NCBI GenBank assembly: GCA_034231615.1
Contig: CM067318.1
Coordinates: forward strand, 32,381,723 to 32,445,722
DNA from: Meghimatium bilineatum
Lineage: Eukaryota > Mollusca > Gastropoda > Stylommatophora > Philomycidae
Length of the DNA stretch: 64,000 nt
Direction: 5' to 3'
The notes beneath the pieces were generated by a model, which had not been told where the DNA came from, made no database searches, and worked only from the letters and a program-made list of their open reading frames with translations. The translations under genes and the position numbers were made by a program. Below, in pieces: positions 3,691 through 51,736 of this stretch. Numbering within the stretch: the first letter of the stretch is position 1; every line of letters starts with the position of its first letter.

Positions 3691-3946
3691 AAATGTTGCC
3701 AATCTCTTGTTTAGATAATAGATAATAATTATTGACATAAACAAGTACACACACATTTAGACCCTCTCTAAGTAGGAGCCTTTTTTCTCAAGCCATTGCA
3801 TTCACCGTCAAGAGCTTATGTCTTCTGGGTATATAAGAAAACTTTTCAGAAACAACTCGTTGTACATAGAGAACAAGAGCTAGTTGCTTGTAATTTCAGA
3901 TGATTGTACAAACGTTATCACATTTGCATTTTCTGTTTTGTTTCAG

Positions 3947-4033
3947 TCGCAACGAGATTTGAGGCCAGACGTACGTAAAACTGTCATTGTTGTATCAGAA
4001 GGCGTCTCACTTTTCCCGGTAGAGATTCGAGAG
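3947..4033 (+). CDS. Exon: middle of vWA domain
   Basis: 29 codons, phase 0 at both ends. The acceptor is CTGTTTTGTTTCAG. The peptide contains RPDVRKTVIVVSEGVSLFP, which matches the central beta strand and following loop of vWA domains (usual form VIVLTDGxS). The usual TDG is SEG here, so the third metal-site acidic residue is Glu rather than Asp. The best donor is GAG followed by GCAAGT at 4034-4039, a consensus GC-AG donor. An in-frame GT donor at 4019 is possible but would remove five residues that vWA loops normally have. Earlier vWA exons are not in the window. Confidence 0.75.
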
Positions 4034-7000
4034 GCAAGTTCACCAAAACTTTAATAGCTATAATGTTATGTTGTTCGTCCATCACAAGTGATGATGACCA
4101 TTTGTTACATTCACTTTTGAAAATTCAATTTTAGTTATGTCCTTGATTATGACTTCGTAGATGGCTAATGAGCCATATTCGAGCTGTAAAGGTCCTTGGA
4201 CAGTTCGGACATGGAATGACGACAGTAGACGGATCTTGGTCTGTCCGTGACTTTCTAACTGCTCAGCTTTTGAGCTGCTGCATTTTTCCTCTTTTCACAA
4301 GATGATGCGCTCTTATTGATTTTAGAACGCCATGTAGATCTATTTTGTGCAAGTTCTTCCCATGTCTCGTGGTCTATTTCAAAGACTTTTAGTGAGTTCT
4401 TTACCGAGTCTTTGTAGCGCTTCTTTTGGCCACCTTGAGATTGTGTGCCCTTCTCCAGCTCACCATAGAGAAGTATCTGTGGCAGACGATGGTCTGGCAT
4501 ACGCACCAAATGACCTGCCCAACGAATCTGTGTCTGCATCAGGATCGTATCAATGCTGGGGATACCAGCTCTATCAAGGACAGTGATATCTGGAATCTAG
4601 CTATAATATAGCTATAATACAGTATAGATGTAGGCTTCATTAAGTAGTATTCGATCACACTAATGATGGAGAGATACGATTGTGACAGAACCAATTAGTA
4701 CTATACTGTTGAAAAATTAAAAAAAGGAACCGCAACATTATTTCAAACATGTACTAAAATTGTATTTTACTGAATTAATGTTCCATCCTTGGCATGACGA
4801 AACTTTAAGACTTTAACTAAATCAAAACCCATTGTCTCAAGACATTCCTAACGGTCCATTGCCGATGCTAGTTCGCCCACTGCAGTCGGTTCTTATGATG
4901 CCTGTCCGTAAAGAACAGAACCTCCGTAGGGTCTTCTAGCCAAAAGACTAGCGTCGTGCAGCCGGTTCCTGGACGTTTGATATGAAATTCGACGAGTTCC
5001 TGGAATTGACTGAACTGTGGAGGACGCAGATGCACCTCGATTCCTGAGGTGACGACGCCGTATGAAACGGTTTTCGGTAGGAGTTGTGGGTCTTCCACGG
5101 CGCGGCTTGTCTGCCACTGAGCCAGTTTGTTGAAATAGCCTCCAAAGGCGACTATCGGTGCTTCTAACCACATTAAATTGTCTGACCACCACACTTTGTG
5201 ATTGTTCAGTCTGTAAGCGCCCAATGATGATGTATCGTTGTCCCACCCGTGTATTGACGGGGCCCGAAGGGGAGCAAAGAATAGCAACACTGTTTACCTT
5301 CCACGCATGTCGTAAAAGGCGACTAAGGAGGTTATGGGATGGAGTTGGCTTTCCCATCCCATATAGGGTCAGTGACCCAAAGCCATGCTGAAGTCGGATG
5401 TGTTAGGCTGAAAGGCGCAGATATTTCAGCAATGCTGTAAACCAAGACACAACGCATTCCGTTCTCCGGACTACATCCTTTTAATCTGCAGGAGTGTGAG
5501 AACGAACGCAGAAGAAGAAGAAGAAGTATCGTTGTTCTGCAGTGAGATTAGTCATTAGACATTAAATTGTCAACATAATTTATTCGAGCACCGCCAATCT
5601 TTAATAGGCATTCAATAATATAGTCAGAGAGTTTTGTATTCATAGCGACACTCAAGAATCTGTCACTAATTATTGACAAAAATGTTGTTTTAACCTTGAC
5701 CGCTTTCATGACATCACGAATAATGAGGTAAGTACAATTCAATTAACCAGGACAAGGTTACATTGGATAGGTTGGAATATGTATAATTCGCGGATATCTT
5801 TTATAAAAGTAACTCCAAAAAAAGTTGAGTCTCTTTTATTTGGAACAGAATAGGTTATTTACCCGAGGCAGCAATTTCATTGACACGACATGAAATATGT
5901 ATCTCACATTTAAACTATATATGAAGCACAAGTACTTAGCACACTTTTCCCATATCATTCTATCTATCTGTCTATCTGTCTATCTATCTATCTATCTATC
6001 TATCTATTCGCTGAAACCCTCTGTTGCCTTTCGGCGTCAGAGGTAGAAGAGTTTTCTGGAGACGGCCCCCGTGTGTGCTGAGTATATTATGGAATTTGTT
6101 GCCTCTTTTATTTCAGTAGGCCATCGTTTTCTTGGTCGGCCTCTAGGTCTGCCTTCGCTGTATCTGTGTAGCATAGCTTGCTGTGGTAGTATGCCGTCTG
6201 ATGGTAGTCTGCTGACGTGTGAAAACATTGTTCTTTTGAGTGTTTCTTTTGGTCTACCATTTGCTCTTTTACCTGTAGGTATCCATTCAAGAGATCGAGA
6301 TCGATGGTGTATTCTTTTGATGTCTGCACGTAGGACATGCTCGATGTAGGACCAACGGCGTTTTCTGATAACATCTGTGATAAAATTTTGATGTGTCTCT
6401 TCTCTGATTTTATCATTCGATTTGAATTCACTCCAATGGGTGTTAGTTATCCTACGAAGACATTTGTTCTCGAAACTCAGTAATTTCTTTTCTGAAGATA
6501 AAGAGCTTTTCCAGCTCTCACATCCATATGATAGCACCGGAATAACGCAGGAATTAAATAAGCGCATTTTCGTGCGTGTGCTGATTGACTTTGACTTCCA
6601 GATATTAGAGAATCTGTTAAATTCACTTGATGCTAGGGCAATGCGAGTTGTAATTTCTGGCATGACATACCGTCGAGTGTTAATTTGATCCAATAGCACT
6701 GTAATAATATTGCGCTACTTATGTTGAACAGTGTGTGTGTGCGTGTGCGTACGTGTATATGTGTGTGTATATATACGGCCGTGCTGAATATGACCAGTGT
6801 ACATTGCAAGTTTACTGAATGGTTCAGTGTCTTCTTTGTTGCATGCACTGTTGAAACTCTCTAGTACTAGTATAGGTTTCCGTTTGTTGTTTGTGTGAGT
6901 GCGTGTGTGTGTTGATAAACTTATTATTCATCATGACTTTTAACATAAACCTAATATTTCAATGTTTGTAAACTTACAGCAGATGTTCACTAAGATATTC

Positions 7001-10000
7001 AACTATAATATTCTCAACAGAGCGCTGAGAGATTGAGGGAGATCCCTGCAGATGTGTATGCTGTCGGGATAGGTTCGTTAGCGGCTGTGCCAGATTTAAT
7101 GGACATCACTGGAAACGTTAGCAAAACAATTATTTTGGAAGAATTAGATGATCCAGTATTAACTGACATTAAAATTGATCTCGACGTTGATCTTGATGGC
7201 ATGATAGGTCAGTATGTGTTAATTTTTTAAAGATACTTTTAATAAGTTGTTTTTCTAATGCAGATGATATATGTATTCGTGTGTGCGTGTGTGTTTAATC
7301 TTGCATGCTGTCACTATATTATCCAAAACATCCCCGTTTCATATTTATATTGTTGTGTTCCTTCAGCGTCAAATAATGTTCATTCATTCATTGGTACCAT
7401 GCCTTCCGGCGTAGGCGATCATGTCTATCCACAGTCGTCTGTTTGTTATACATTTAAATATAGTTTCTGATGATTCTGCATCATGCCAGGCTTTCAAGCC
7501 ATCCAACATTTTCTCATGTTGTCTTCCTCTGTCTCTCTTATCCTCGATCTTTCCAGTTGTTATGATGTTCTATAACCCACCTCTTCTCGTGACATGACCC
7601 AGAAACTGTGACTGTCGTCTTCTAATACAGTTAATAAGTTCTCTATTTGAGTTGACCAGTTGTAGAATTATAGCATTACTCCTTTTAGCTGTCCATGATA
7701 TTTTCAACATTCTTCTATAAAACCACATCTCTGTGGCCTCCAGATGTTTTCTTACAATATTGGCAATTGTCTATGCTTCACTACCATATAACAGTATGGG
7801 TTCTATGTAACATTTTAGTATGTTCTTTCTTGCTTCTATTGAAAATGAATTGTTACACTAGATGTTCCTCATCTTCTGGATTGCTGCTTTTGCCTGTATG
7901 TTGTTTTCGACTTTTTATCTCAGTGACGCACCTTTAACTTCTGAAGTAATAATTGTGCACAAATATTTAAATTTGTCTACTTGTTTATGAACTGTCCAGT
8001 TGACCTTGATGTTACTTTTAGAAGGGTTAGATGTTTTAGATATTTTAGATGTTTTAGATGTTTTAAATAATGTTCATGGAACAGAAACCAGTGCTCACCA
8101 TGTTGAGCAGCGATGTAAATGATACTGTGTGTAGTTTTTGCATGTTTACGAGTGTTTACTCCCCGTTTCATAATGTTCTATAAAATATAGAACCTTATCA
8201 TCAATGTCTCCTTTTGACATTAGTAACCCTGCTGTGCATTTGACTCATTCAACTGCAATTCGTTATTTCTAACTACCCATGATACTCTCATCATTCTTTT
8301 GTAGAACCATATTGTCTCGAAGGCATTTAATTGTCCGCTCTCCAGTTTATTTATTGTTCAAAACTCTATTATATTTATTAGATTCGGTGAATCCCACCAA
8401 AAAAACAACAGATAGAATAATGAATTTGTTACTACAAAATAGGCAATATATCCATATTTAAAAAAACAACTCAATTTCATGTTCAATTTTTTTATTTATT
8501 TTTTTGTAATACACCATTACTTTTTCCATTTCAGATGGCCTTTATCCTTCGATTATGCCTGGAGGTAGGACTATTATTATTACCAGGTTTATAACTAGGA
8601 CTATATCTAAGACTATATCTGCCACAACACCAACAAGGCTGATCTCTGTCGCTTCAAGCACCATAACATCAACAAGCCTGATCCCTCGAGCTACAAGCAC
8701 CATAACATCAACAAGCCTGATCCCTCGAGCTACAAGCACAATAACATCAACAAGGCTGATTCCTCGTGCTACAAGCACCATAACATCAACAAGCCTGATC
8801 CCTCGTGCTACAAGCACCATAACATCAACAAGCCTGATCCCTCGTGCTACAAGCACCATAACATCAACAAGCCTGATCCCTCGTGCTACAAGCACCATAA
8901 CATCAACAAGCCTGATTCCTCGCGCTACAAGCACCATAACATCAACAAGCATGATCCCTCGCGCTACAAGCACCATAACATCAACAAGCCTGATTCCTCG
9001 CGCTACAAGCACCATAACATCAACAAGCCTGATCCCTCGTGCTACAAGCACCATAACATCAACAAGCCTGATCGCTCGCGCTACAAGCACCATAACATCA
9101 ACAAGCCTGATCCCTCGCGCTACAAGCACCATAACATCAACAAGCCTGATCCCTCGCGCTACAAGCACCATAACATCAACAAGCCTGATCCCTCGCGCTA
9201 CAAGCACCATAACATCAACAAGCCTGATCCCTCGAGCTACAAGCACCATAACATCAACAAGCCTGATTCCTCGCGCTACAAGCACTATAACATCAATAGT
9301 GTTCACGATGTACCAGACAAAGACCTCATTTGCTCTCCACTCTGACACCACAACTCTAGAAATTTCAACATACACCGACATATCTTACACAACTCAAACA
9401 GTTTCATCTTACACAGACACATTTATTTCTTCAACATCGTACTCCGACATCACAACTCCAGCAAGCACTGGTGCATTCACTTTAGAAACTTCATCATACA
9501 CTGACACTACTTTTGTTACAGCAGAAAGCTCTGAGCTATTCACTCTAGAACCTTCATCATACACTGACACTACTTTTGTTACAGCAGAAAGCTCTGAGCT
9601 ATTCACTCTAGAACCTTCATCATACATTACTTTTGTTACTGCAGCAAGCTCTCATGCATTCACTCTACAATCTTCATCGTACGCTGACACTGCTTTTGTT
9701 ACAATAGAAAGCTCTGATGTATTCACTCTAGAATCTTCATCGTACACTGACACTACTTTTGTTACAATAGAAAGCTCTGATGTATTCACTCAAGAACCTT
9801 CATCATACTCTGTCACTACTTTTGTTACAATAGAAAGCTCTGATGTATTCACTCAAGAACCTTCATCATACTCTGTCACTACTTTTGTTACAATAGAAAG
9901 CTCAGAGCTATTCACTCTAGAACCTTCATCATACACTGAAACTAATTTTGTTACTACAGAAAGCCCTGATGCATTCACTTTAGAAACTTCATCATACACT

Positions 10001-13000
10001 GACACTACTTTTGCTATAACAGAAAGCTCTGCTGAGCTATTCACTCTAGAACCTTCATCATACACTGACACTACTTTTGTTACTGCAGCAAGCTCTGATG
10101 CATTCACTCTAGAAATTTCATCATACACTGAAACTACGTTTGTTACAACAGAAAGCTCTTATGTATTCACTCCAGAATCTTCATCGTACACTGACACTAC
10201 TTTTGTTACAACAGAAAGCTCTGAGCTATTCACTCTAGAACCTTCATCATACACTGACACTACTTTTGTTACTGCAGCAAGCTCTGATACATTCACTCTA
10301 GAAACTTCATCGTACGCTGACACTACTTTTGCTACAATAGAAAGCTCTGATGTATTCACTCTAGAATCATCATCGTACACCGACACCACTTTTGTTACAA
10401 TAGAAAGCTCTGATGTATTCACTCTAGAACCTTCATCATACTCTGACACTACTTTTCTTACTACAGCAAGCACTGATGCATTCACTTTAGAAACTTCATT
10501 ATACACTGACGCTACTTTTGTTACTGTAACAAGTTCTGATGCATCCGCTCTAGAACATTCATCATACACTGACACTACTTTTGATACTGCAGCAAGCTCT
10601 GATGCTTTCACTCTAGAAATTTCTTCATACACTGACACTACTTTTGTTACAACAGAAAGCTCTGAGCTATTCACTTTAGAAACTTCATCATACACTGAAA
10701 CTAATTTTGTTACAACAGAAAACACTGATGCATTCACTTTAGAAACTTCATCATACACTGACAATACTTTTGTTACAACAGAAAGCTCTGAGCTATTCAC
10801 TCTAGAACCTTCATCATACACTGACACTACTTTTGTTACTGCAGCAACCTCTGATGCATTCTCTCTAGAAATTTCATCATACACTGAAACTACGTTTGTT
10901 ACAACAGAAACCTCTGATATGTTCACTCTAGAATCTTCATCTTACACTGACACTACTTTTGTTACAATAGAAAGCTCTGGTGTATTCACTCTAGAACCTT
11001 CATCATACACTGACAATACTTTTGTTACAATAGAAAGCTCTGGTGTATTCACTCTAGAACCTTCATCATACACTGACACTACTTTTGTTACAATAGAAAG
11101 CTCAGAGCTATTCACTCTAGAACCTTCATCATACACTGAAACTAATTTTGTTACTACAGAAAGCGCTGATGCATTCACTTTAGAAACTTCATCATACACT
11201 GACACTACTTTTGCTATAACAGAAAGCTCTGCTGAGCTATTCACTCTAGAACCTTCATCATACACTGACACTACTTTTGTTACTGCAGCAAGCTCTGATG
11301 CATTCACTCTAGAAATTTCATCATACACTGAAACTACGTTTGTTACAACAGAAAGCTCTGATGTATTCACTCTAGAATCTTCATCGTACACTGACACTAC
11401 TTTTGTTACAACAGAAAGCTCTGAGCTATTCACTCTAGAACCTTCATCATACACTGACACTACTTTTGTTACTGCAGCAAGCTCTGATACATTCACTCTA
11501 GAAACTTCATCGTACGCTGACACTACTTTTGCTACAATAGAAAGCTCTGATGTATTCACTCTAGAATCATCATCGTACACCGACACCACTTTTGTTACAA
11601 TAGAAAGCTCTGATGTATTCACTCTAGAACCTTCATCATACTCTGACACTACTTTTCTTACTACAGCAAGCACTGATGCATTCACTTTAGAAACTTCATT
11701 ATACACTGACGCTACTTGTGTTACTGTAACAAGTTCTGATGCATCCGCTCTAGAACATTCATCATACACTGACACTACTTTTGATACTGCAGCAAGCTCT
11801 GATGCTTTCACTCTAGAAATTTCTTCATACACTGACACTACTTTTGTTACAACAGAAAGCTCTGAGCTATTCACTTTAGAAACTTCATCATACACTGAAA
11901 CTAATTTTGTTACAACAGAAAACACTGATGCATTCACTTTAGAAACTTCATCATACACTGACAATACTTTTGTTACAACAGAAAGCTCTGAGCTATTCAC
12001 TCTAGAACCTTCATCATACACTGACACTACTTTTGTTACTGCAGCAACCTCTGATGCATTCTCTCTAGAAATTTCATCATACACTGAAACTACGTTTGTT
12101 ACAACAGAAACCTCTGATATGTTCACTCTAGAATCTTCATCTTACACTGACACTACTTTTGTTACAATAGAAAGCTCTGGTGTATTCACTCTAGAACCTT
12201 CATCATACACTGACAATACTTTTGTTACAATAGAAAGCTCTGGTGTATTCACTCTAGAACCTTCATCATACACTGACACTACTTTTGTTACTGCAGTAAG
12301 CTCTGATACATTCAATCTCGAAATTTCATCTTACACTGAAACTACGTTTGTTACAACAGAAAGCTCTGATGTATTCACTCTAGAATCTTCATCGTACACT
12401 GACACTACTTTTGTTACAATAGAAAGCTCTGGTGTATTCACACTAGAACCATCATCATACACTGACACTACTTTTGTTACTGCGGCAAGCTCTGATACAT
12501 TCACTCTAGAATCTTCATCGTACGCTGACACTACTTCTGCTACAATAGAAAGCTCTGATGTATTCACTCTAGAATCATCATCGTACACCGACAACACTTT
12601 TCTTACTACAGCAAGCACTGATGCATTCACTTTAGAAACTTCATTATACACTGACACTACTTTTGCTACTGTAACAAGTTCTGATGCATCCGATCTAGAA
12701 CCTTCATCATACACTGACACTACTTTTGTTACAACAGAAAGCTCTGCTGAGCTATTCACTCTAGAACCTTCATCATACACTGGCACTACTTTTGTTACTG
12801 CAGCAACCTCTGATGCATTCTCTCTAGAAAATTCAGCTTACACTGAAAGTACGATTGTTACAATAGAAAGCTCTGATGTATTCACTCTAAAACCTTCATC
12901 ATACTCTGACACTACTTTTGTTACTGCAGCAAGCTCTTATGCATTCACTCTAGAACCTTCATCATACACTGACACTACTTTTGTTACTGCAGCAAGCTCT

Positions 13001-43000: not shown

Positions 43001-44387
43001 TAGATGCAAGACATCTCCAAACTCCAAAAACACAGGAATTTTCAAACGTAAAAAATGTAGCGGTAGCACATCAGAAGTGTTGATTCCTTCTTCGGACGTG
43101 ACTAGACCGGTCACTCTCCTATTTCAGTATCTGACATCCGCTAACCGAAGCATAGGTTCACCTCCAGAAGTTTTAATTCGTTCTAGAACTTGTAAGCAAG
43201 AACATGAAGGAATACTTGTCGTATCGGAAGATGTTGCATTCCTCAGTGTCCAAATATTATCACCGTCTGGATATGTCTTATCGGCCTCATTACCACTTCA
43301 GGTAAGACTGAAAAAAATATCATATTTTTCAAGTACACGTAGGCTATAAGGTTTTTAACCTCTTTTACCTAATATGGGATGGGACAACTAATTCCACCCT
43401 ACATCTTTAGTTGCCTCTTACGACATGCATGGAAGGTAAAGTGTTTTTATTATTTGCCCCCTTTTGGGCCCAGACATCACAAAAATGCATCTTTTACATT
43501 TAAATATTAGAGAAAGTCCAAGTTTGCTAAGTATGGTTTTTGATTCATTGCGGAAATCAGTGGCCACATTTTAACGGAACAAATCATATTATTTAACGAA
43601 ACAAACTTTCACTAAAGACTTATAAACCGCCGCACCTATCGCTCTGCGCGCAACGCACTTAGAAACCGCCCTCTCATCGATGCCCTGTGGACAGCTTTCA
43701 TCTGCGTTGCACGCAGATCGATTCATTGGCACCACAAATTACGTCTTTTTAATCTCCGAGTCATGGAAACTGTATGAAATCACGAATAACATAAAAAAAA
43801 GTTACAATGTGAACACATGATGCGGCCACTGATTCCCGTGATGATAGGGTTGGTTGTTTTTTTTTAAATCTATATTGATACAGTGGAATCCATCTATAGC
43901 GTATCCTTTTACAACAAATTTTCCTATTTTTACAACACTTTTTAAAAAATCCCCCATTATATTTATTCTTTATTGTTTTTAATGCTTTTAGCGAATTTCT
44001 GTTATTATAGGGGCATATACATATTTTGTTGTTCCGGACCAAGTTGTCATAATGCGATTTGACTGTTGTAACCTTATACTCATTGTTTCTTAGGGCCTAA
44101 ACCAGACTGAATGGCGCAAAATCTACATCCAGTACTTGAAAGGGAATGTATTTCTAGAATTAACTTCAGGAAACCTAGTTTACAACGTCTACGTAACAGG
44201 TAGCATTATACTGTTTCAATATTAAACATATCTCTTTAACATGAAAATCTCATCCATATGTTACCACAGTACTAAGGGTAATGCAAAGTGCATCAAGTAT
44301 ATGAGTGAAGTATGTTCAAACCAAAGGGTAGCACAATATCATACTGGAATAATAGGATTTTCAAGACACATTTATTGATCTTATTAA

Positions 44388-44474
<87 letters not shown>

Positions 44475-47400
44475 AACATAACACTGACCATGTCAGGCTT
44501 TATTATACTCATTTATAGATAGACCTGAAGATCTAACATTTTTTTTATTAAAGGCACTAGCTATTTATCTCTCTAGCCATTTATATTCCTCATACTGGTC
44601 ATTTATCTAATATTTTGTACACCTTATACTAGTCATTTATCCAACCTTTTATATCCCTGAGAATAAAACCAACAAAGAGGTTCTAGCAACACTTCGTATG
44701 AATTGTTTAAAAAAAGAAAAAAATATTAAAAAATAAAGATCAAACAAATCAAATATTTTGGACATTAAAAGACCATATTACCTTGTTGAATACTTTATTT
44801 GAGGGTAAATAAAGGGGAGGCAAGCAAGAGGGAATAAGAGATACAAGTGAGGGAGTAAATTCTCGAGATGGACAGGTTACAGTCTAACAGAATGCACCAC
44901 CAATACAAGAGACATGGGATGTTGCAGGTCTGTTGCAGCCAATCTTCATTGCGGAGATGGAATTTCATGATGATGATATCCCTGACTATGCTGATTTATC
45001 TAACCTTTTATATTACATGCATTAGTTATCTATCTCTTTACCATTTATATCCATGATATTGGTTATTTATCTAGCCTTTCATATCCCTTACATTGGTCAT
45101 TTATCTAACATTTTATATTCATTACATTGGTCATTTATATAACCTTTTATATTCCTTAAACTTGTCCTTTACCTAACCTTTTATATCCCTTACATTGGTC
45201 CTTTATCTAACCTTTTATATTCCTTACACTTGTTCTTCTTCTTCAACGTTCATTCTCAAACTCCCATTTGATATCTTGTATCAGGACCATGGTCCTAATA
45301 GATTTCCAGATGGATGTAGTCCAGAGAATGGAAATGTGTTGTGTCGCCGTTTTATTTGCGCCAATGGCCCGACACAGCCGTCTTCAGCGGGCTTACACTT
45401 GTAATTTATGTAACCTTTTATATTCCTTACACTGGTCATTTATCTAACCTTTCTTGTATATCCCTGACACTGGTGACTTATCTTTGTTTGTTTGTTAAAT
45501 GGGGGATTAAGCCTCTTAGCTGAAGCACGACCCTTTCAACCTAAGACAGAAGTCTATTTTGGTTATATCAGGCCGTATTAGCTTTTATCTAAATGTGACC
45601 TAATGGTCTGGGTGTTTGGAAAGCCGTGCGTGCTATTGCTATGTATTATTTATATTGCTAGGTGGAGTTGATGTTTATTTGTGGCCAAGATGCTTTTTAT
45701 CTAAGTGTGACCTATGGTCTGGGCGAATTGAGAACCGTGCGCGCTATTATTGCAAAAGAATGTTATGTTGCTAGTTGTATTAAACTGTTTATTTCTGGTG
45801 GTATTGCTTTTTTATTTAAGAGTGACACTAATGCCTGGGGGAGTTTGAAAAACCATGCGTGCGATTATGCCAAAAATTGTCCATATTGCCAGTCGTATCC
45901 TGTGGTGAGCGTTCCTCGGTTGTTATTTGTTGAAAGCTGTGGAGAGAGACCTGTAGAAAGACTGATGACAACCAATGACTTATTTTGTTTTTGACTTGCT
46001 TAGATTTTTTAATTAGGGCTTTAGTCCTGGTGACTTATCTCTCTAACATTTCCTTTTATATCCCTTAGACTGGTCTTTTATCTAACCTTTATAATTCTGA
46101 AACTATGGTTATTTATCTCTAATTTTTTGTATCCCACTCTAATCATTTATCTCTCATATAATTTAGAGATAATATAGAGGTTAATATAACCTCTTATAAG
46201 ACTATTCCTGACACTATGGTTATGCATCTCTAACCATTTATATCCCTGACACTTTAATCATTTGTCACTTTAACATTTCATATCTGTTATTGTTCATAAT
46301 GTATATAACACATTTCTGTTATTAAATATATATTTTGTAGGTCTGAATAAATTTGTTATAATGGGATTTAACCATATATTTAAATATGTTATGTAATGGG
46401 ATTTAACCATATATTTAAATATGTTATGTAATGGGATTTAACCATATATTTAAATATGTTATGTAATGGGATTTAACCATATATTTAAATATGTTATGTA
46501 ATGGGATTTTAACCATATATTTAAATATGTTATGTAATGGGATTTTAACCATATATTTAAATATGTTATGTAATGGGATTTAACCATATATTTAAATATG
46601 TTATGTAATGGGATTTAACCATATATTTAAATATGTTATGTAATGGGATTTAACCATATATTTAAATATGTTATGTAATGGGATTTAACCATATATTTAA
46701 ATATGTTATGTAATGGGATTTAACCATATATTTAAATATGTTATGTAATGGGATTTAACTATATATTTAAATATGTTATGTAATGGGATTTAACCATATA
46801 TTTAAATATGTTATGTAATGGGATTTTAACCATATATTTAAATATGTTATGTAATGGGATTTTAACCATATATTTAAATATGTTATGTAATGGGATTTTA
46901 ACCATATATTTAAATATGTTATGTAATGGGATTTAACCATATATTTAAATATGTTATGTAATGGGATTTAACCATATATTTAAATATGTTATGTAATGGG
47001 ATTTAACCATATATTTAAATATGTTATGTAATGGGATTTAACCATATATTTAAATATGTTATGTAATGGGATTTAACCATATATTTAAATATGTTATGCA
47101 ATGGGATTTTAACCATATATTTAAATAAGTTATGCAATGGGATTTAACCATATATTTAATATGTTATGTAATGGGATTTAACCATATATTTAAATATGTT
47201 ATGTAATGGGATTTTAACCATATATTTAAATATGTTATGTAATGGGATTTAACCATATATTTAAATATGTTATGTAATGGGATTTAACCATATATTTAAA
47301 TATGTTATGTAATGGGATTTAACCATATATTTAAATATGTTATGTAATGGGATTTTAACATATATTTAAATATGTTATGTAATGGGATTTAACCATATAT

Positions 47401-50128
47401 TTAAATATGTTATGTAATGGGATTTAACCATATATTTAAATATGTTATGTAATGGGATTTAACCATATATTTAAATATGTTATGCAATGGGATTTTAACC
47501 ATATATTTAAATATGTTATGCAATGGGATTTTAACCATATATTTAAATGTTATGTAATGGGATTTAACCATATATTTAAATATGTTATGTAATGGGATTT
47601 AACCATATATTTAAATATGTTATGTAATGGGATTTAACCATATATTTAAATATGTTATGTAATGGGATTTAACCATATATTTAAATATGTTATGTAATGG
47701 GATTTAGCCATATATTTAAATATGTTATGTAATGGGTTTAGCCATATATTTAAATATGTTATGTAATGGGATTTAACCATATATTTAAATATGTTATGTA
47801 ATGGGATTTAACCATATATTTAAATATGTTATGTAATGGGATTTAGCCATATATTTAAATATGTTATGTAATGGGATTTAACCATATATTTAAATATGTT
47901 ATGTAATGGGATTTAACCATATATTTAAATATGTTATGTAATGGGATTTAACCATATATTTAAATATGTTATGTAATGGGATTTAACCATATATTTAAAT
48001 ATGTTATGTAATGGGATTTAACCATATATTTAAATATGTTATGTAATGGGATTTAACCATATATTTAAATATGTTATGTAATGGGATTTAACCATATATT
48101 TAAATATGTTATGTAATGGGATTTAACCATATATTTAAATATTTTATGTAATGGGATTTAACCATATATTTAAATATGTTATGTAATGGGATTTAACCAT
48201 ATATTTAAATATGTTATGTAATGGGATTTAACCATATATTTAAATATTTTATGTAATGGATTCATGCTCTATTCAGCTTTGTGTGTTAATCTTTTAAATA
48301 TTTTGGGTGTAGGACACAAATATTTTGTGTTAGGTGTCTGCTAAGCAAGCACAGAACAAAAGGATAAAAACCTAACAGCAAAAACAACAATACAATCTAC
48401 TCCATTATTTTATCTACCAGGTGGATTACATATTCCGGTAGGTGCGTGTGGATGGAGCGTTGGAACAACTGAAGACCTAAAGAGTAATTTGACTAAGTTT
48501 TCTGGAAAAATTACTGAAGTAAGTACATAACTATTCTGAATACTTTTATAAGAATCAAAACTCTTAGGCCTACAACAGAAACATGCGAATGAAGGAACTA
48601 AAGATAGAGAGAGTACAGGTAAATGAAATGATATGACTAGACTAAAGATAAATTGTTGATTGACAGATAGTGATGTAGCTAGACCTATAGGTACAATTTA
48701 GATGGATTGAGAAGGGTGTAGCTTAGTCTTGAACAAAGAATATAGATGGACAGAGGATGTAACTAGACTTGAACAAAGAATATATATGAACAGGGAAGGA
48801 TGTAACTAGACTTGAACAAAGAATATAAATGAACATAGAAGGATGTAACTAAGACTTGAACAAAGAATATAGATGGACAGAGGATGTAACTAGACTTGAA
48901 CAAAGAATTATATGAACAGGGAAGGATGTAACTAGACTTGAACAAAGAATAAAAGTAAAAGAAAAATTGATGTACCAGTAACTAGATTTGAACAAAGAAT
49001 ATACTCCGCCGAAGATGGATGTGTCGGGTCATTGGCGCAAATAAAACGGCAACATAACGCATTTCCATTCTCTGGACTACATCCTGCTGTAAATCTAGTA
49101 CTGCCATTGTTCTGCTACAAGAGAGATCTGGCGGGAGTTTGAGAATGAACGCTGAAGAAGAAGAAGAACAAAGAATATACATGGACAGGGAAGATGTAGC
49201 CAGACTTGAACAAAGAATATAGATGGACAGGGAAGGGTGTAACTAGACTTGAACAAAGAATATAGATGGACTGAGAAAGATATAACTACACTTGAACAAA
49301 GATTGTAGATGGACAGAGGCGGATGTAACTACACTCGAACAAAGTTTATAGAAAGACAGAGGATGAAGTAACCAGACTTGATGATAGAATGTAGATATAT
49401 AACATAAGTAGATTCTAAAATAGAATATAGATAGATAGAGAAGGATCTAACTAGACTTTACCATAGAATATTGGTAGCGTATCGTATTCAAGACATAGCC
49501 ATCAACCCAGAATTTTTGGTTGTAGTGATTTTCTAGGAAATATAAATATGTTTAGTAGTATGCCATTGCTTTCTGAATGATCCGGATGCACAATTGTCCA
49601 TGACGGGTTTCAAGCTCAATATTTTGGGCATCATAGACGTGCACTGTACCATGCCGGCCACAGAGCTGGACACCATATAATATGATTTTAAAAATCTCAC
49701 TTAACTTAAACATAAAATATAGATCGACAGGACATAGATACAAATTCAGTAAGGATTTGGGGGAGGGTTTACCTAAAAGTGGCATTTGATGAAAAATGCA
49801 ACTTTTTGTAAAAATCGTTGGGGGGTGGGGGGGGGGGGTTCTATCTTTTGGCTACATTTCAAGTACTAAAAGTTATATTCCAATTTGCAAAGGGGGTGGG
49901 TTTTAATCCTTTCCCCCCCCCCCCCCCACCACCACACCTTTATATATGGGTTTGTCGACAGTGGATATCTGTAGGCTTGAACATAGAATGTAGTTATGTC
50001 CAACAAAGAATGATGACCTATCAAAGCCTTACTTATGGTAAAAATTAATATAGTACATCCAGTAACACATAATTATCTACTTCTTTTTCTAGATTCTCAT
50101 CTCCAGGTGCAACGAATATGGATTTTAA
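3947..50128 (+). CDS. Pif/BMSP-like shell-matrix protein gene with a giant Ser/Thr repeat exon (5' end missing)
   Basis: Gene-level entry. Ten exons join in frame (exon-end phases 0, 1, 1, 1, 1, 1, 0, 1, 0, stop) into 20,739 nt, 6,912 codons plus TAA. Domain order: C-terminal half of a vWA domain, an acidic linker, about 6,435 codons of Ser/Thr-rich repeats, two peritrophin-A-type (CBM14) chitin-binding domains, a short cysteine module and a laminin-G-like domain. Known Pif and BMSP proteins combine vWA, chitin-binding and laminin-G-like domains, are secreted, and bind chitin and calcium carbonate in shell. By inference this protein has a related extracellular, chitin-bound role. The giant repeat between vWA and the chitin-binding domains is the unusual part. 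Signal peptide, first vWA exons and promoter lie upstream of the window. A large mucin-like peritrophin not tied to shell is the main alternative. Confidence 0.85.
4255..4550 (-). mobile_element. LINE 3' fragment (RTE/CR1-like C-terminus)
   Basis: The minus strand encodes QIRWAGHLVRMPDHRLP, then LLYGELEKGTQSQGGQKKRY, then WEELAQNRSTWRS, a very common C-terminal block of invertebrate LINE reverse transcriptases. No catalytic domain is present. It lies inside the GC-AG intron of the shell-matrix-like gene. A related block occurs at 29440-29775. Confidence 0.8.
4868..5250 (-). mobile_element. Tc1/mariner transposase N-terminal fragment
   Basis: The minus strand shows the bipartite helix-turn-helix DNA-binding region of Tc1-type transposases: GRLQTEQSQSVVVRQFNV, then LWRLFQQTGSVADKPRRGRP, and after it NRLHDASLLARRP. 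A frameshift near the end moves the reading to a TDRHHKNRLQWA stretch. The catalytic DDE part is absent, so it is a dead fragment. Its N-terminal side abuts the retroposon at 5251. Confidence 0.8.
5251..5526 (+). mobile_element. AGAAG-tailed retroposon, longest copy
   Basis: The most complete copy of a dispersed family. The 5' part has CGCATGTCGTAAAAGGCGAC, the middle GGTCAGTGACCCAAAGCCAT, and the 3' part ACAACGCATTCCGTTCTC then GGACTACATCC, ending in (AAG)n at 5508-5526. The same order occurs at 58130-58465 and 62330-62560; halves of it occur at 36478, 43340, 45234, 49005, 51945, 58575 and 59701. It has no open frame. It is probably a SINE or the mobilised 3' end of a LINE. Confidence 0.65.
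5527..5956. other. No recognisable feature
   Basis: AT-rich intron sequence. No coding, repeat or regulatory signal was recognised. Confidence 0.5.
5957..6007. repeat. (TATC)n microsatellite
   Basis: Run of TATC units with a few TGTC variants. Confidence 0.95.
6030..6700 (-). mobile_element. LINE 3' part, long open C-terminus
   Basis: About 220 open minus-strand codons. They include RLFNSCVIPVLSYGCESWK, KCLRRITNTHW, RKRRWSYIEHVLR and a GRPRGRPRKRW stretch, the typical region after the RT thumb in RTE-like LINEs. The RT catalytic part is missing. A related 3' end lies at 37340-37505. Still largely open, so younger than most LINE pieces here. Confidence 0.8.
7021..7207 (+). CDS. Exon: C-terminal end of vWA domain and acidic linker
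   Basis: 62 codons plus one base; phase 0 in, phase 1 out. The acceptor is TTCTCAACAG and the donor is ATAG followed by GTCAGT. The peptide starts SAERLREIPADVYAVGIGS, the textbook last helix and strand of vWA domains (A-x-x-L-R...V-Y-A-V-G-I-G), then LMDITGNVSKTIILEELDDP. It closes with an alternating acidic linker, TDIKIDLDVDLDGM. The next exon starts AT GGC, so the split codon reads GAT (Asp) and the frame runs straight into the giant exon. Confidence 0.85.
7375..7950 (-). mobile_element. LINE 3' fragment (RTE-like)
   Basis: The minus strand, read through frameshifts, gives the same C-terminal block as 1-432: a tyrosine/tryptophan-rich start near 7790, RRRQSQF-like and GHVTRR-like segments near 7600, and an ITTGKIED..RDRG-like segment near 7540. 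No intact frame. It lies in the intron just before the giant exon. Confidence 0.65.
8200..8385 (-). mobile_element. Short LINE remnant
   Basis: Minus-strand similarity to the LINE block at 7690-7760 (ATGATACTCTCATCATTCTT then GTAGAACCATATTGTCTC against GATATTTTCAACATTCTTC then ATAAAACCACATCTCTG). Too short and decayed for a firm call. Confidence 0.4.
8535..27842 (+). CDS. Giant exon: Ser/Thr-rich mucin-like repeat region
   Basis: 19,308 nt, phase 1 in and phase 1 out, with no stop or frameshift across about 6,435 codons. The acceptor is CTTTTTCCATTTCAG and the donor is GATG followed by GTAATG. Content in order: a short Thr/Ile-rich start (8535-8630), about 17 copies of a basic 13-residue repeat, roughly 270 copies of an acidic 21-residue repeat, a diverged repeat zone (about 26,560-27,010), a 5-residue SYTDT array, further diverged repeats, and a Cys/Asn/Gly/Asp-rich end. 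Ser and Thr dominate, so heavy O-glycosylation or phosphorylation is plausible. Regular Asp and Glu would make the bulk acidic, as expected of a calcium- or matrix-binding protein (inference). In known Pif proteins the equivalent stretch is far shorter or absent. Read-through to a stop at 27926-27928 is the alternative ending. Confidence 0.85.
8630..9296 (+). repeat. 39-bp coding tandem array (13-residue unit)
   Basis: About 17 in-frame copies of a 39-bp unit encoding SLIPRATSTITST. Variants include R, M and A substitutions (RLIPR, SMIPR, SLIAR). Each unit has one Arg and no acidic residue, so this block is basic, unlike the acidic array after it. Confidence 0.95.
9440..26790 (+). repeat. 63-bp coding tandem array (21-residue unit), about 270 copies
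   Basis: In-frame units read SSYTDTTFVT followed by TESSDVFTLEP, with variable sites (T/I/A before ES, D/G/EL before F, P/S/I/T at the end). A few units are one codon longer (SSAELF) and one near 9620 is shorter. Alternating hydrophobic and polar residues (TFVTT, VFTLE) suggest two short beta strands per unit (inference). Unit types are shuffled in blocks, showing unequal exchange or conversion inside the exon. The array decays towards its 3' end (after about 26,560). Confidence 0.95.
9901..12290 (+). repeat. Higher-order duplication, 1,200-bp period
   Basis: 9901-11090 and 11101-12290 are nearly identical: 4 differences seen by line-by-line reading. The period is 19 units of 63 bp plus one extra codon. 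It is a recent tandem duplication inside the coding exon. Confidence 0.9.
27014..27208 (+). repeat. 15-bp coding tandem array (SYTDT)
   Basis: About 13 copies of a 15-bp unit (TCTTACACGGACACA) encoding SYTDT, with SYTGT and SYMDT variants. It is in frame within the giant exon. The unit equals the start of the 21-residue repeat, so it probably arose by local slippage from it. Confidence 0.95.
27843..27928 (+). other. Possible alternative end: hydrophobic tail and stop
   Basis: If the donor at 27843 is not used, the frame continues for 27 codons and stops at TGA (27926-27928). The tail is a small/polar stretch (NAYDS) followed by VIVVVSVVMVFEAIVLCS. That resembles a GPI-attachment or C-terminal membrane signal, with no basic residues after it. 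It could be chance translation of intron. Transcript data would decide. Confidence 0.35.
28060..28575 (+). mobile_element. LINE 3' fragment (RTE-like)
   Basis: Frameshifted C-terminal block: TCVFPVTTYGCETWTINK at about 28127-28180, then IRVMRIPRTAKKTNEDVLRK, then a decayed remainder to about 28575. Same family type as 1-432. It lies in the intron after the giant exon. Confidence 0.75.
28796..28918 (-). mobile_element. tRNA-derived SINE, 5'-truncated
   Basis: Reverse complement of the 3' half of the SINE at 2099-2347 (TATGTCCCATGGTAGCAACC, CTGCCGTCGGGGATGAA). It is flanked by a perfect 12-bp target-site duplication, TAGTGCTAGTAA, at 28784-28795 and 28919-28930. Confidence 0.85.
28931..29430. 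other. No recognisable feature
   Basis: Intron sequence with short A-rich and ATG-rich stretches near 29325-29425. No gene or repeat family recognised. Confidence 0.5.
29440..29775 (-). mobile_element. LINE C-terminal fragment with zinc-finger-like tail
   Basis: The minus strand reads KALQTSPKKLSQYYSIDPSS, then WETTSLDRSAW, then FEKGKNTAGNPQAQEAEGQI, then PCTNRTHRASTNSQ. The order matches the LINE end that closes with a C-x-x-C...H-x-x-x-H finger. The finger residues are mostly lost. Confidence 0.7.
29854..30048 (+). CDS. Exon: chitin-binding (peritrophin-A/CBM14) domain 1
   Basis: 65 codons, symmetric phase 1. It follows a long pyrimidine tract and TTCAG; the donor is CAAG followed by GTGAGT. 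The peptide has the six-cysteine pattern of CBM14: C in GICFKA, C in HPRDCYKFIQCH (two), C in VRFCPIGLFW, C in LTCVEP and C in LTSCQ. The aromatic FW after the fourth cysteine fits chitin contact. Known CBM14 domains bind chitin outside cells. Confidence 0.9.
30180..30345. mobile_element. Possible DNA transposon end
   Basis: Contains CCATGCGTCCTCTTTTTCCC and ACATGTCCTCTTTTTGG, then GTCCGGGATTTTTAC. I associate this motif set with non-autonomous DNA elements in invertebrates, but I cannot name the family and see no matching second end. Confidence 0.3.
30400..33620 (+). mobile_element. Near full-length degenerate LINE: endonuclease, RT, RNase H
   Basis: I-superfamily-type non-LTR element. A damaged apurinic-type endonuclease start is readable at about 30440-30800 (NKKPELQ.FLS, then MCIQE.LLKDT.RFF, then GILTFVKT). 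The RT shows RYRPVILMSCVGKTMKQM near 31514, then FMDLSKAFDKVW at 31725, PQGGVISPNLFLVFI at 31902 and the HADDFAAW catalytic box near 31994. RNase H follows: VYTDGSAKGAVRNGG near 32855 and GNEKADDLS near 33202. A DECPCGS cysteine tail lies near 33453. There are many stops and frameshifts and part of the endonuclease is lost. It lies in the intron between the two chitin-binding exons. Confidence 0.85.
33785..33850 (+). repeat. Dispersed repeat end
   Basis: GAGGTTTCCACAAGAGGAAA followed by ATTATATAGACAT matches 54006-54045 closely. Function unknown. Confidence 0.5.
34004..34050. repeat. (GATT)n/(CATT)n microsatellite
   Basis: A run of GATT units passes directly into a run of CATT units. Confidence 0.9.
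34163..34357 (+). CDS. Exon: chitin-binding (peritrophin-A/CBM14) domain 2
   Basis: 65 codons, symmetric phase 1, exactly the length of the first chitin-binding exon, which suggests exon duplication. The acceptor is AATGTCTTCTCAG and the donor is TCAG followed by GTATGC. Cysteines lie at DPCKKLC, GGCGLYWKC, KRCRFYNAY, NGCIF, MPTCNN and QTFC. The central GLYWKC matches the CBM14 core. More diverged than domain 1 in its second half. Confidence 0.9.
34550..35730 (+). repeat. Dispersed repeat (about 0.7 kb), split by an insertion
   Basis: 34550-34897 and 35376-35730 together match 61780-62330 in order: GGATGCATGTTTAGT, then GACAGGTTGTCAGC, then ATGCCTGAA..GAAGACA, then CTGAACT.GTAGTCCA. The element is interrupted by 34898-35375. 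No open frame; origin unknown. Confidence 0.65.
34898..35375. mobile_element. 478-bp foldback insertion with 14-bp target-site duplication
   Basis: It sits between two copies of TTGTCAGCGTTTCC (34884-34897 and 35376-35389) and splits the repeat described above. Its right two thirds form a long inverted repeat: the arm from 35049 to about 35168 (starts CAATATAAATAACCAAAATA) pairs with about 35258 to 35378, roughly 90% matched. The transcript would fold into one hairpin. No coding capacity. Confidence 0.8.
35740..36470. other. No recognisable gene
   Basis: Intron. Short CCCC-rich and TTTT-rich stretches; possibly a decayed DNA element near 35900-36310, but no ends could be matched. Confidence 0.4.
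36478..36620 (-). mobile_element. AGAAG-family retroposon, decayed copy
   Basis: The minus-strand order of the family is visible: AACTCCCATCGATCTCTTA, AGCAGGACAATGACTCTACT, AGATTTTTAGCAGGATG and GTTGTATCGCCGTTTT, matching 59701-59868. Confidence 0.6.
36621..37339. other. No recognisable feature
   Basis: Intron sequence; nothing recognised on either strand. Confidence 0.45.
37340..37505 (-). mobile_element. LINE C-terminal remnant
   Basis: The minus strand gives a RRPIGHPRKRWIDSVLETL-like piece followed by a HAEEANRRAK-like piece and the same 3' end as 6030-6100 (TGTACCTTTCGGTGTTGAGG against TTGCCTTTCGGCGTCAGAGG). Confidence 0.6.
37510..38515. other. No recognisable feature
   Basis: About 1 kb of intron with a poly-C tract at 38389-38400. 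No gene, LINE or SINE recognised. Confidence 0.45.
38531..38686. mobile_element. hAT-like MITE
   Basis: The start CAGTGGCTCTCAACCTTTT and the end GATTGAGAACACCTG form terminal inverted repeats of the common hAT type (CAGNGGTTCTCAACC). Flanking 8-mers ATCCATCG and CTCTAGCG match at 5 of 8 positions, so the target duplication is decayed or absent. Confidence 0.65.
38889..39032 (+). CDS. Exon: short cysteine module before the laminin-G-like domain
   Basis: 48 codons, symmetric phase 1. The acceptor is a 16-base T tract then GCAG; the donor is CGAA followed by GTAAGT. The peptide has GKCENMPLAGNSGYRV, then INCWTLTEFDFASCSCRP. The C...F-x-x-x-x-C-x-C ending resembles the short cysteine segment between the chitin-binding and laminin-G-like parts of Pif-type proteins (inference from memory of the family). 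A minus-strand LINE begins right after its donor. Confidence 0.8.
39050..40240 (-). mobile_element. LINE with RT palm and C-terminus (RTE-like)
   Basis: The minus strand shows GVRQGCVLSPYIF at about 39950-39980, then YADDITLGAQ near 39830, the RT catalytic boxes. It continues towards lower coordinates through KNLQYFGHIKRHGNLEQSL near 39260-39310, and ends at about 39050 near a GATGATGA tail. Several frameshifts. Confidence 0.8.
40241..40305. repeat. 24-bp tandem repeat, about 2.7 copies
   Basis: GCTAGCGTGATTGATCAGTG repeats with a CAAT joint. Confidence 0.85.
40517..40700. repeat. 24-bp tandem repeat, 8 copies
   Basis: Unit TTAGGCTGTAGAATAGATGA plus TATC, nearly perfect, with the last copy diverging. 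A divisible-by-three length leaves a frame open by chance; no sign of a gene. Confidence 0.95.
41100..42080 (-). pseudogene. Unidentified decayed coding sequence
   Basis: The minus strand reads as protein-like sequence across about 980 bp with scattered stops and frame changes. Readable pieces in order from high to low coordinates: ETSTPTYPAAPSAHSDEMSL, then LEKATCAKGQRCVCYL, then RLKQESCLGYWIRQLEHVPL, then FKILTEAVLRLGLCAPKNR, then CRFCPTRFIQRKLGSVSNG. I do not recognise the family. Two cysteine pairs and the loss of frame suggest a dead transposon or viral-type ORF rather than a host gene. It lies in the intron before the laminin-G-like exons. Confidence 0.4.
42180..42437 (-). mobile_element. 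LINE 3' remnant
   Basis: CCATGGTGTTCTCAATATTC followed by TTCTATAAAATCATATCTCTG matches the LINE piece at 7690-7735 on the same strand. Interrupted on its right by the SINE at 42448. Confidence 0.55.
42448..42731 (+). mobile_element. tRNA-derived SINE, full-length copy
   Basis: The head carries pol III promoter boxes: A box TAGCCTAGTTGA at 42459-42470 and B box GGTTCGAAAC at 42509-42518. The body is shared with 2099-2347 (GATTTCTCGCCTGA, GTTAGGGAAGGTAAACATAG, ATTCTCAACGTCAGG). Target duplications TTTCACACC lie at 42439-42447 and 42732-42740. It is the reference copy for the family in this window. Confidence 0.85.
42919..43301 (+). CDS. Exon: start of laminin-G-like domain
   Basis: 127 codons after two joining bases; phase 1 in, phase 0 out. 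The acceptor is TATTATTCTACAG and the donor is CTTCAG followed by GTAAGA. The joined first codon is AAG (Lys). The peptide begins CPLVTLLNTTSNVMI, has a Lys/Ser/Asn-rich stretch with two cysteines, then VTLLFQYLTSANRSIGS, then GILVVSEDVAFLSVQILSPS. The hydrophobic strand pattern fits the first half of a concanavalin/laminin-G fold, though weakly on its own; the later exons make the case. Several N-x-S/T sites are present. Confidence 0.8.
43340..43480 (-). mobile_element. AGAAG-family retroposon, 5' half
   Basis: Reverse complement of the 5' part at 5260-5370: TTGCCTCTTACGACATGCAT, GGAAGGTAAAGTGTT and CCTAATATGGGATGGGA. The 3' half is absent. Confidence 0.65.
43600..43835. repeat. Dispersed hairpin repeat, second copy
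   Basis: Matches 3395-3690 in order (ACTAAAGACTTATA, CGCTCTGCGCGCAACGCACT, CTGTATGAAATCACG). The inverted core TCTGCGCGCAACGC with GCGTTGCACGCAGA is retained. Confidence 0.6.
43881..44070. mobile_element. pogo/Tigger-like MITE
   Basis: Starts TACAGTGGAATCCATCTATAG and ends ATAATGCGATTTGACTG; the ends are imperfect inverted repeats of the CAGT-RAATC type seen in pogo-like elements. It ends 23 bases before the next exon. The 35-bp array at 46361 shares its right end. Confidence 0.45.
44094..44199 (+). CDS. Exon: middle of laminin-G-like domain
   Basis: 35 codons plus one base; phase 0 in, phase 1 out. The acceptor is CATTGTTTCTTAG and the donor is ACAG followed by GTAGCA. The peptide GLNQTEWRKIYIQYLKGNVF then LELTSGNLVYNVYVTG matches the W-x-x-(I/V)-x-(I/V)-x-(Y/F)...G...L strand pair of laminin-G-like domains. 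Confidence 0.85.
44394..44471. repeat. (AT)n microsatellite
   Basis: About 39 uninterrupted AT dinucleotides. Confidence 0.98.
45234..45391 (-). mobile_element. AGAAG-family retroposon with 11-bp target duplication
   Basis: Minus-strand copy: TTCTTCTTCAACGTTCATTC, GATGTAGTCCAGAGAATGG and GCGCCAATGGCCCGACACAG. It is flanked by CTTACACTTGT at about 45223-45233 and 45392-45402, which supports copying through RNA. Confidence 0.8.
45590..45994 (+). pseudogene. Short coding-like block, possibly OTU-like
   Basis: An open stretch of 110 codons from 45662 holds ICGQDAFYLSVTYGLGELRT, then VRAIIAKECYVASCIKLF, then NCPYCQSYPVVSVPRLLF. The first two pieces loosely resemble the G-x-x-x-F-x-x-A-x-x-x-x-L...(L/V)R...V-A-x-E core of OTU-like proteins, many of them transposon-derived. 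The usual Asp-Gly-Asn-Cys is not intact. A diverged second copy of the start lies at about 45585-45660. Low-confidence identification. Confidence 0.3.
46361..48259. repeat. 35-bp minisatellite, about 54 copies
   Basis: Unit ATGGGATTTAACCATATATT plus TAAATATGTTATGTA; 36-bp variants carry one extra T. The array is head-to-tail without spacers. The ATATATTTAAATAT core is nearly self-complementary. It ends about 160 bases before the acceptor of the next coding exon. Confidence 0.97.
48421..48518 (+). CDS. Exon: later part of laminin-G-like domain
   Basis: Two joining bases plus 32 codons; phase 1 in, phase 0 out. The acceptor is ATTTTATCTACCAG and the donor is GAA followed by GTAAGT. The peptide GLHIPVGACGWSVGTTEDLK then SNLTKFSGKITE has the glycine/cysteine turn and the F-x-G-x-I-x-E closing strand typical of laminin-G-like domains. 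One N-x-T site. Confidence 0.9.
48660..49480. repeat. Degenerate 40-43-bp tandem repeats
   Basis: Recurrent unit ATGTAACTAGACTTGAACAA then AGAATATAGATGGACAGG, decaying towards both ends. Interrupted by a retroposon at 49005-49165. Confidence 0.85.
49005..49165 (+). mobile_element. AGAAG-family retroposon inside tandem repeats
   Basis: Plus-strand copy (GGATGTGTCGGGTCATTGG, ATTCTCTGGACTACATCCTG, GAACGCTGAAGAAG). Flanked by GAACAAAGAATATAC at 48990-49004 and 49166-49180. Because the host array repeats nearly this sequence, part of the duplication could be the array itself. Confidence 0.8.
49819..49935. repeat. Poly-G and poly-C tracts, opposed
   Basis: An 18-base G-rich run (about 49820-49838) lies 75 bases before a C run (about 49912-49927). 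Together they are an imperfect inverted repeat that could form a hairpin or G-quadruplex. Confidence 0.85.
50093..50128 (+). CDS. Terminal exon: end of laminin-G-like domain, stop
   Basis: Eleven codons and TAA, phase 0 in. The acceptor is TTCTTTTTCTAG. The peptide ILISRCNEYGF completes FSGKITE from the previous exon, giving the last strand and the final cysteine of the laminin-G-like domain. No clear AATAAA was seen nearby downstream. Confidence 0.8.
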   Translation: MLISRCNEYGF

Positions 50129-50654
50129 CTGAGAACAACCCTGTTGGAGCATGTGGCTAGAGCAATAGACATGCTTCACTCGCAACCATCTACATAACTG
50201 TCAAAATGAAAGGTTTGTCCTAACAATGCAACCTTTTCATCAGTCATATCTGACAGTGTAGGCCCTAATTCACATATCATTGATGTAACTTTAATATAAT
50301 TTTCAAGTTGTAGCATTTTCTGGCAAACTGGATGTATTCTAAGGAAAGTTCCAAAATTCCAGTTTGTAATAATCTAGATGTGTTCTAAAGCAGATTCTAA
50401 CATACCACTTTGTAATAATGATATCAAATAAGCAGCTTTAATATGAGAATATTTTAACTATTAACAAATCGGAAGTAATTTTTTTTAATGATTTTTTTTA
50501 TTCCTGTATTGAATGTTTATAATTTATAAATATGTTTTAATGGGTTCTTTCCCAGTTAATGGGTCTACCTTCACACTATCTTAAAAATTTACGCCGATTT
50601 GAAATTTTGTGTAATTTTATGATGTCACTCTGCTAGCTCCGTCATAGTTACAAA

Positions 50655-50900: not shown

Positions 50901-51079
50901 TAAATATGGTCAAGGGAAATCCTTGAGAAAAAAAAAAGGAAGAAAACAGATCTGTCTACCCTTTATTTAATTTCACTTTCCGTAAAAAAAAAGGTAGATC
51001 CGTAATCTAGGAAAGAGGCTTTTAATATATTAGCTCTACAATATTTTCTTATGACTGGAGTAATTACACATTACAGAAA

Positions 51080-51730: not shown

Positions 51731-51736
51731 GTCCAG

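Follow-up and report, generated by a model that had tools for sequence, protein, structure and literature searches.

The window, which is the whole stretch of DNA analysed here, comprises 64,000 bases without N from Meghimatium bilineatum (contig C21:32,381,723-32,445,722, in an assembly of 1,612,235,226 bases and 32 contigs), and 60 kb of upstream DNA was added to it for modelling. The start-to-stop gene model obtained consists of 13 exons with matching phases and no internal stops, encoding 7,041 residues with a pI of 4.05. Its predicted order is a signal peptide, a vWA, an exon of 19,308 bases, a pair of chitin-binding modules, then a cysteine module and finally a beta-rich end. The features are as follows, in window coordinates, negative positions lying upstream of the window.

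-11682 to -11601, + strand: candidate signal-peptide exon, chosen by hydropathy and a phase-1 donor
-6909 to -6779, + strand: vWA exon, first piece, from phase match and the joined Pfam vWA
-3952 to -3797, + strand: vWA exon, second piece, from phase match and the joined Pfam vWA
3947 to 4033, + strand: E1, third piece of the vWA, phase 0/0, GC-AG donor
7021 to 7207, + strand: E2, end of the vWA and acidic tail, phase 0/1
8535 to 27842, + strand: E3, giant exon of 19,308 nt, phase 1/1, no stop
8622 to 9296, + strand: 39-base (13-residue) tandem repeat inside E3, basic and Thr/Ser-rich
9475 to 26735, + strand: 63-base (21-residue) array inside E3, about 274 units, consensus FTLEPSSYTDTTFVTTESSDV
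27012 to 27201, + strand: 15-base tandem repeat inside E3
27843 to 27925, + strand: in-frame read-through of the E3 donor with a hydrophobic end, TGA at 27923-27925
29854 to 30048, + strand: E4, first chitin-binding (CBM_14) module, phase 1/1, Pfam match
34163 to 34357, + strand: E5, second CBM_14-like module, phase 1/1, Pfam match below cut-off
38889 to 39032, + strand: E6, cysteine module, phase 1/1
42919 to 43301, + strand: E7, start of the presumed laminin-G-like region, phase 1/0
44094 to 44199, + strand: E8, phase 0/1, weak donor (0.79)
48421 to 48518, + strand: E9, phase 1/0
50107 to 50160, + strand: E10 with the stop codon TAG

The ten in-window exons, which the initial annotation had joined into one frame with matching phases, are retained as part of the 13-exon model, and their 20,757 nt encode 6,918 residues, in keeping with the minimum of 6,900 given there. 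The junctions 7207/8535 and 27842/29854 on either side of the giant exon are likewise sound, both being GT...AG sites with phase 1 on each side. The extent assigned to the gene (3947 to 50128) was corrected at both ends: position 3947 is indeed an acceptor but not the gene start, three exons lying further upstream, and the model places the stop codon at 50158-50160 rather than ending at 50128.

Donor strength, scored with a simple matrix made for this analysis and ranked against all GT in the window, was uneven, with 8.17 for E4 and 7.11 for E7 against 1.59 for E3 (96.7th percentile) and 0.79 for E8 (94.5th percentile). Three donors are thus weak or non-canonical, namely those of E3 and E8 and the GC donor of E1. 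E8 was recovered only with relaxed splice thresholds, as the best among 12 candidate rows. A stretch at 45285 was also tried as E8 and rejected, having no usable donor and part of its reading repeated on another contig.

The giant exon and its repeat array

E3 lies within a stop-free stretch of 6,471 codons on the + strand (8510-27922) and encodes about 6,436 residues, of which 25.1% are Thr and 19.7% Ser (44.8% together), with a net charge of -888. Base composition would lead one to expect about 354 in-frame stops in its 6,435 codons, and none occurs. The main array holds 273.8 copies of the 63-base unit, and the periods of all three arrays in the exon (39, 63 and 15) are divisible by three. 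The repeat insert recognised in the initial annotation is therefore far from chance. The term acidic given to it needs dividing, since it fits the 21-residue array, with 911 D+E and 39 K+R, but not the 39-base array, which is basic over about 226 residues with 18 K+R and no D+E.

Over 5,753 codons per frame of the main array, stops number 0 in the coding frame and 482, 361, 793, 755 and 80 in the other five. When the array was cut into 274 units, all starts fell in the same frame; 266 of the 273 spacings were 63 bases, six were 66 and one was 57, so that all seven length variants are multiples of three. Several of the six 66-base spacings have an identical insertion and may copy one event. Moreover, of the coding-frame codons that differ from the consensus by one base, none of the eight possible stops occurs, all eight being transversions, while 71 of the 118 sense neighbours reached by transversion are present. 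Of 45 one-step stop neighbours in the other five frames, with units shifted cyclically and columns having a stop as consensus left out, 30 were present. This difference implies that the reading frame of E3 is guarded.

At the level of residues, pN/pS among repeat units was about 1.04 (pS 0.164, pN 0.172), as sampled from 3,000 pairs drawn at random from the 162 distinct units among the 266 units of 63 bases. Selection is visible on the frame of the units and not on their residues, which counts against the reading proposed below; a pN/pS near 1 is not unusual for a mucin-like stretch, where composition outweighs order. Within the array, identical stretches of 200 bases or more are repeated at offsets of 1,200, 2,331 and 1,452 bases, and therefore blocks of many units have been duplicated too.

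Terminal modules and paralogous loci

At the N-terminal side, the signal-peptide exon candidate reads MSLWITVFVCMFCVTSSQDVDLKPVTS. No other candidate having the required phase-1 donor turned up in 33,090 upstream bases, and 145,090 control bases yielded none, in a search with fixed thresholds that used hydropathy and phase only, not SignalP. The vWA domain is visible to Pfam only after exon joining: in raw + strand frames (2000-8600, 27500-46300 and 48000-57500) Pfam reported the CBM_14 in E4, a LINE and a weak CdrL_M (E 0.34). E1 and E2 alone gave a match to the C-terminal half of the vWA, and the 10 kb adjoining the window upstream contained its N-terminal start (profile 1-41, E 0.051). The joined vWA exons matched Pfam VWA with 65.1 bits (E 1.2e-17), uninterrupted over positions 1-154 of the 174 in the profile, and gave 24 matches among PDB sequences at E 0.01. 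Among these, collagen VI alpha 3 reached 2.3e-21 for the whole many-domain chain, the best single domain having an i-E of 0.0011, and von Willebrand factor A domains scored from 8.1e-05. Such uninterrupted matches support the exon joins, and the vWA end of the earlier reading is borne out as a complete domain.

Only one vWA was found in the gene. The usual metal-site motif of vWA domains is D-x-S-x-S, and the corresponding site here, in the exon at -6909 to -6779, reads E-S-S-N-Y and looks degenerate, which may mean that metal-dependent binding has been lost. In the same upstream 10 kb, residues 9-172 of frame 3 gave a match to PF04286 (DUF445) with E 1.3e-4 and 22.5 bits, below the cut-off of 33.8.

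On the C-terminal side, two chitin-binding domains had been proposed, of which the first is confirmed by profile and the second is not. Joined E4-E7 (307 aa) matched CBM_14 with 31.4 bits against a cut-off of 22.1 (E 2.1e-7), the best stretch lying in E4, which scored E 9.2e-7 in its raw frame. E5 alone reached 14.2 bits (E 0.048), below the Pfam cut-off of 22.1, and is 37-39% identical to CBM2-like exons of paralogous loci. Two cysteines of those exons seem to be missing from it, the first belonging to a CC doublet and the second lying beyond it, so perhaps a disulfide was lost as a pair. The E6 cysteine module had no match in Pfam. The laminin-G-like end announced earlier found no profile support: E7-E10 had no meaningful Pfam match (one CoA_trans, E 0.2) and only three unrelated ones among PDB sequences (E 0.28-0.71), the resemblance being one by eye. 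For the argonaut Pif, the C-terminal domain was likewise unpredicted by sequence, yet its model resembled LamG3, according to the consulted part of PMC9635652. The C-terminal part, in an early exon set, was also compared with a large protein set, where none of 2,900 candidates reached E 0.01.

Genome searches placed the gene among relatives. With the C-terminal part as query, the 14 matches at E up to 1 were the gene's own seven exons and seven paralogous CBM exons, lying on C8 at 10.48 Mb and 10.75 Mb and on C21 at 36.67 Mb, with a lone CBM2-like exon on C21 at 26.82 Mb. The two C8 sites (10,481,731-10,483,974 and 10,745,076-10,747,316) hold Pif-like CBM1-CBM2 pairs about 263 kb apart, with equal CBM1 match scores and slightly different CBM2 scores. 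On C24, a cluster of CBM_14 matches at 60,532,901-60,590,768, four with identical scores, suggests recent tandem duplication. With the 186-residue vWA as query, there were 23 matches, comprising the gene's own four exons and 19 weak vWA matches on C9 (24-30% identity); 18 of these are listed in a tandem cluster at C9:57,648,034-57,694,897, with near-equal scores and mostly about 2.6 kb apart.

The paralogous DNA compared consisted of 10 kb upstream and 10 kb downstream of the first C8 locus and 10 kb upstream of the C21 locus (30 kb in all), together with short search loci. At both the C8 and the C21 locus, vWA-like pieces are followed by CBM1 and this by CBM2. Joining the C8 pieces by eye gave VWA at 6e-11 and CBM_14 at 2.1e-9, and two joined C21 pieces gave VWA at 0.0018, below the cut-off. 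None of these vWA pieces was found at E below 1 by tblastn with the gene's own vWA, and the vWA domains are therefore far apart in sequence. With splice sites picked by hand among those listed, the CBM1 exon of both loci has phase 1/1, that of C8 beginning at the split codon of E4, and the CBM2 exon of C21 has phase 1/1 as well. The shared order and phases thus indicate that the relation of vWA to E4 belongs to a real kind of gene.

From the last vWA piece to CBM1 the distance is about 0.57 kb at C8 and 2.96 kb at C21. Among the open stretches of at least 40 codons in these intervals (5 at C8, 10 at C21) none is Ser/Thr-rich, the highest Ser+Thr being 0.13 at C8 and 0.22 at C21 against 0.45 in E3, so that in both paralogs read the site of E3 is seemingly only intron. 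The C8 locus also has a tandem array, 13 residues in period and rich in Ser/Thr, which occupies an open stretch amid the vWA pieces (reverse complement of L051, about 5008-5583). Without low-complexity filtering this array matches the head of E3 at E 4e-6, and its period is that of the 39-base array. This likeness is taken as one of composition, and common origin may be involved. No convincing tblastn match to the laminin-G-like end was obtained in the 10 kb below CBM2 of the C8 paralog.

A proposed giant linker, its precedents and its alternatives

The reading that we consider likely is a single Pif/BMSP-type gene for a secreted modular matrix protein, in which a linker of about 6,436 residues separates vWA from CBM, its array having grown in frame within a skippable exon. 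The Pif/BMSP-type order holds for the signal peptide, the vWA and the CBM_14 and is backed by two paralogs; the second module is weakly CBM_14-like, and LG is without support by profile. The role generally proposed for shell matrix proteins of the Pif type is to connect chitin with mineral-binding partners. In the protein envisaged here, the C-terminal modules would hold chitin and the N-terminal vWA would hold other proteins of the matrix, a behaviour seen for the vWA of PfuPif in pull-downs according to the part consulted of PMC11291548. Between them, the linker would serve as a long spacer formed by a short basic Thr/Ser stretch and then the strongly acidic 21-residue repeat. Heavy O-glycosylation is probable and would turn it into a hydrated polyanionic tether, able to span more than 1 micrometre if extended, and a mucin-like tether is our main reading of it. 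The filament of the earlier annotation is likewise a putative form.

The array would have grown through duplications that kept the frame, of units as well as of blocks of them, and these are tolerated because unit and exon lengths are multiples of three. In silico skipping of E3 leaves a complete, in-frame, Pif-like product of 606 residues, and since the exon is symmetric (phase 1/1), long and short forms could arise by splicing.

Precedents for this arrangement are recorded in the consulted portion of a survey (PMC11291548) that covers 50 Pif/BMSP proteins in eight subfamilies, describes vWA-CB proteins from molluscs and other lophotrochozoans, and reports partial laminin-G sequences at the C-terminus of 34 of the 50 members. 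The closest are the PifN proteins, nacre proteins of four bivalves, which according to that portion have a vWA, a fairly long insert containing poly-Thr and then CBM_14 and LG (PMC11291548). The statement that the Pif-type order occurs without a repeat insert of this size is correct only in part, as a long insert with Thr occupies the corresponding position in PifN, in the passages seen of that source (PMC11291548). The feature is present here as E3, with the difference that a single 19.3-kb exon supplies about 6,436 residues, which for the most part are copies of a 21-residue repeat. As for size, the same claim stands, in so far as E3 is longer than the published inserts with stated lengths in the consulted text, those lengths being of inserts within LG, of 138-1,438 residues (PMC11291548).

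The gene resembles Pif/BMSP of Pinctada and Mytilus in being predicted as secreted and in the order vWA, CBM_14 and CBM_14-like module. It differs from Pif in the cleavage of R-M-K-R type between the vWA/CB part and the C-terminal part, as no R-X-K/R-R site occurs in all 7,041 residues (only KRKK, in E7), and from Pif/BMSP in that no long Asp/Lys-rich insert was seen, by reading, in the C-terminal part. Bivalve BMSP has four vWA, against the one found here. Among limpet proteins, the Pif-like Lotgi1|239574, 228264 and 232022 of Lottia have a Thr-rich motif directly before the chitin-binding domain, which in Lotgi1|239574 amounts to 59% Thr over aa 300-370, as far as the consulted text of PMC3374290 extends. 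This motif of about 70 residues compares with about 6,436 here, and the Cys doublet of the second chitin-binding domain in Lottia, as given there (PMC3374290), also occurs in the C8 and C21 paralogs but not in E5.

What appears to be new, judged from sequence, is that a gene of the Pif/BMSP type has a giant symmetric exon at the position of the smaller PifN insert. No Pif-type protein of such size was found in a literature search whose coverage mostly excluded subscription journals. Secreted gel or membrane mucins have giant Ser/Thr-rich repeat exons, and E3 resembles these in its repeats and its Ser/Thr content of 45%. It differs from them in that the 63-base array encodes very little proline (1.8%) and 14% aromatic residues, with Phe/Tyr regularly spaced.

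The strongest rival is rather unlikely, and holds that E3 is mainly or sometimes a terminal exon, so that a signal peptide, vWA, giant mucin-like domain and hydrophobic anchor would form a cell-surface mucin, the chitin-binding exons belonging to another transcript. Read-through of E3 stays open to 27922, and right before the TGA at 27923-27925 lies an 18-residue hydrophobic stretch (mean hydropathy 2.79) that could be a membrane or GPI-type anchor. An equally hydrophobic lead precedes none of the other + strand stops in the window that follow 18 open codons (811, the E3 region left out), although attention fell on this tail only in hindsight. With a score of 1.59 the donor of E3 is weak, yet it ranks first among the 24 GT sites in 27300-27925 and has the phase needed by E4. 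An AATAAA follows about 250 bases past the read-through stop, and 5 AATAAA/ATTAAA occur in the 2.0 kb there against about 2 expected (1.06/kb in the window), while none lies within 1.6 kb after the stop codon of the model. Gastropod PifG proteins, moreover, have a vWA without CBM_14 or LG, according to the section consulted of PMC11291548. Against this rival, vWA and CBM stay together in the paralogous loci. In addition, a separate CBM transcript would want a start of its own, and a search from 27,950 to 50,100 yielded no signal-peptide exon of phase 1, so that by this test the chitin-binding part is without one. These two observations favour the secreted form, and the secreted and read-through forms may both exist.

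For the linker itself, a distinctly unlikely alternative to the mucin-like tether is a folded beta-solenoid rod of about 274 stacked 21-residue coils, with the vWA at one end and the chitin-binding modules at the other, its coils lined by Thr, Ser and acidic ladders. AlphaFold2 modelled eight repeat units as all beta with high confidence, and the antisense frame of the array was not folded as all beta. The rod is kept as the lesser reading because AlphaFold2 gives beta folds for more than 40% of random repeats, as stated in the part seen of PMC11795689. At an assumed 0.48 nm per coil and one coil per unit, it would be about 130 nm long. If true, it would be an encoded ruler or a mineral-facing ladder, with its length set by repeat number and removable whole by splicing.

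It is improbable that the functional product is the 606-residue protein with E3 skipped, the giant exon being a rarely used or decaying cassette. The symmetry of E3, the completeness of the skipped product, the two paralogous loci with no such exon between vWA and CBM1 and the pN/pS near 1 among units would all suit it. A decaying cassette should nevertheless contain stops, where none occurs against about 354 expected, and every length variant of the unit keeps the frame. Least probable is an intron satellite, with openness a by-product of the 63-base period and no coding role: a period divisible by three does keep any frame without consensus stops open until mutated, and the best antisense frame has open stretches of up to 399 codons, but that frame holds 80 stops against 0 in the coding frame, one-step stops differ as described (0 of 8 against 30 of 45), and the non-repeat ends of E3 and the 39- and 15-base arrays are open in the same frame.

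If expressed, the secreted, tethered form would be an unusually long protein for the Pif kind. With the linker brought to about 6,400 residues by in-frame expansion, one symmetric exon could alter the reach and charge of the link, perhaps tenfold, and an effect of linker length on the structure of hard tissue could be tested directly through splice form and repeat number. Assemblies built from short reads would probably break such a gene, so more may be hidden.

As for other features, Rfam at gathering cut-offs and a tRNA scan gave no matches. The E4-E5 intron (31670-33300) carries a LINE-type reverse transcriptase (PF00078, E 1.1e-10) with a weak RNase H (E 0.0025). A 35-base tandem array of 54.5 copies with 97% matches occupies 46348-48259 in the intron before E9, and a 45-base tandem array of 4 copies with 99% matches lies at 58263-58443.
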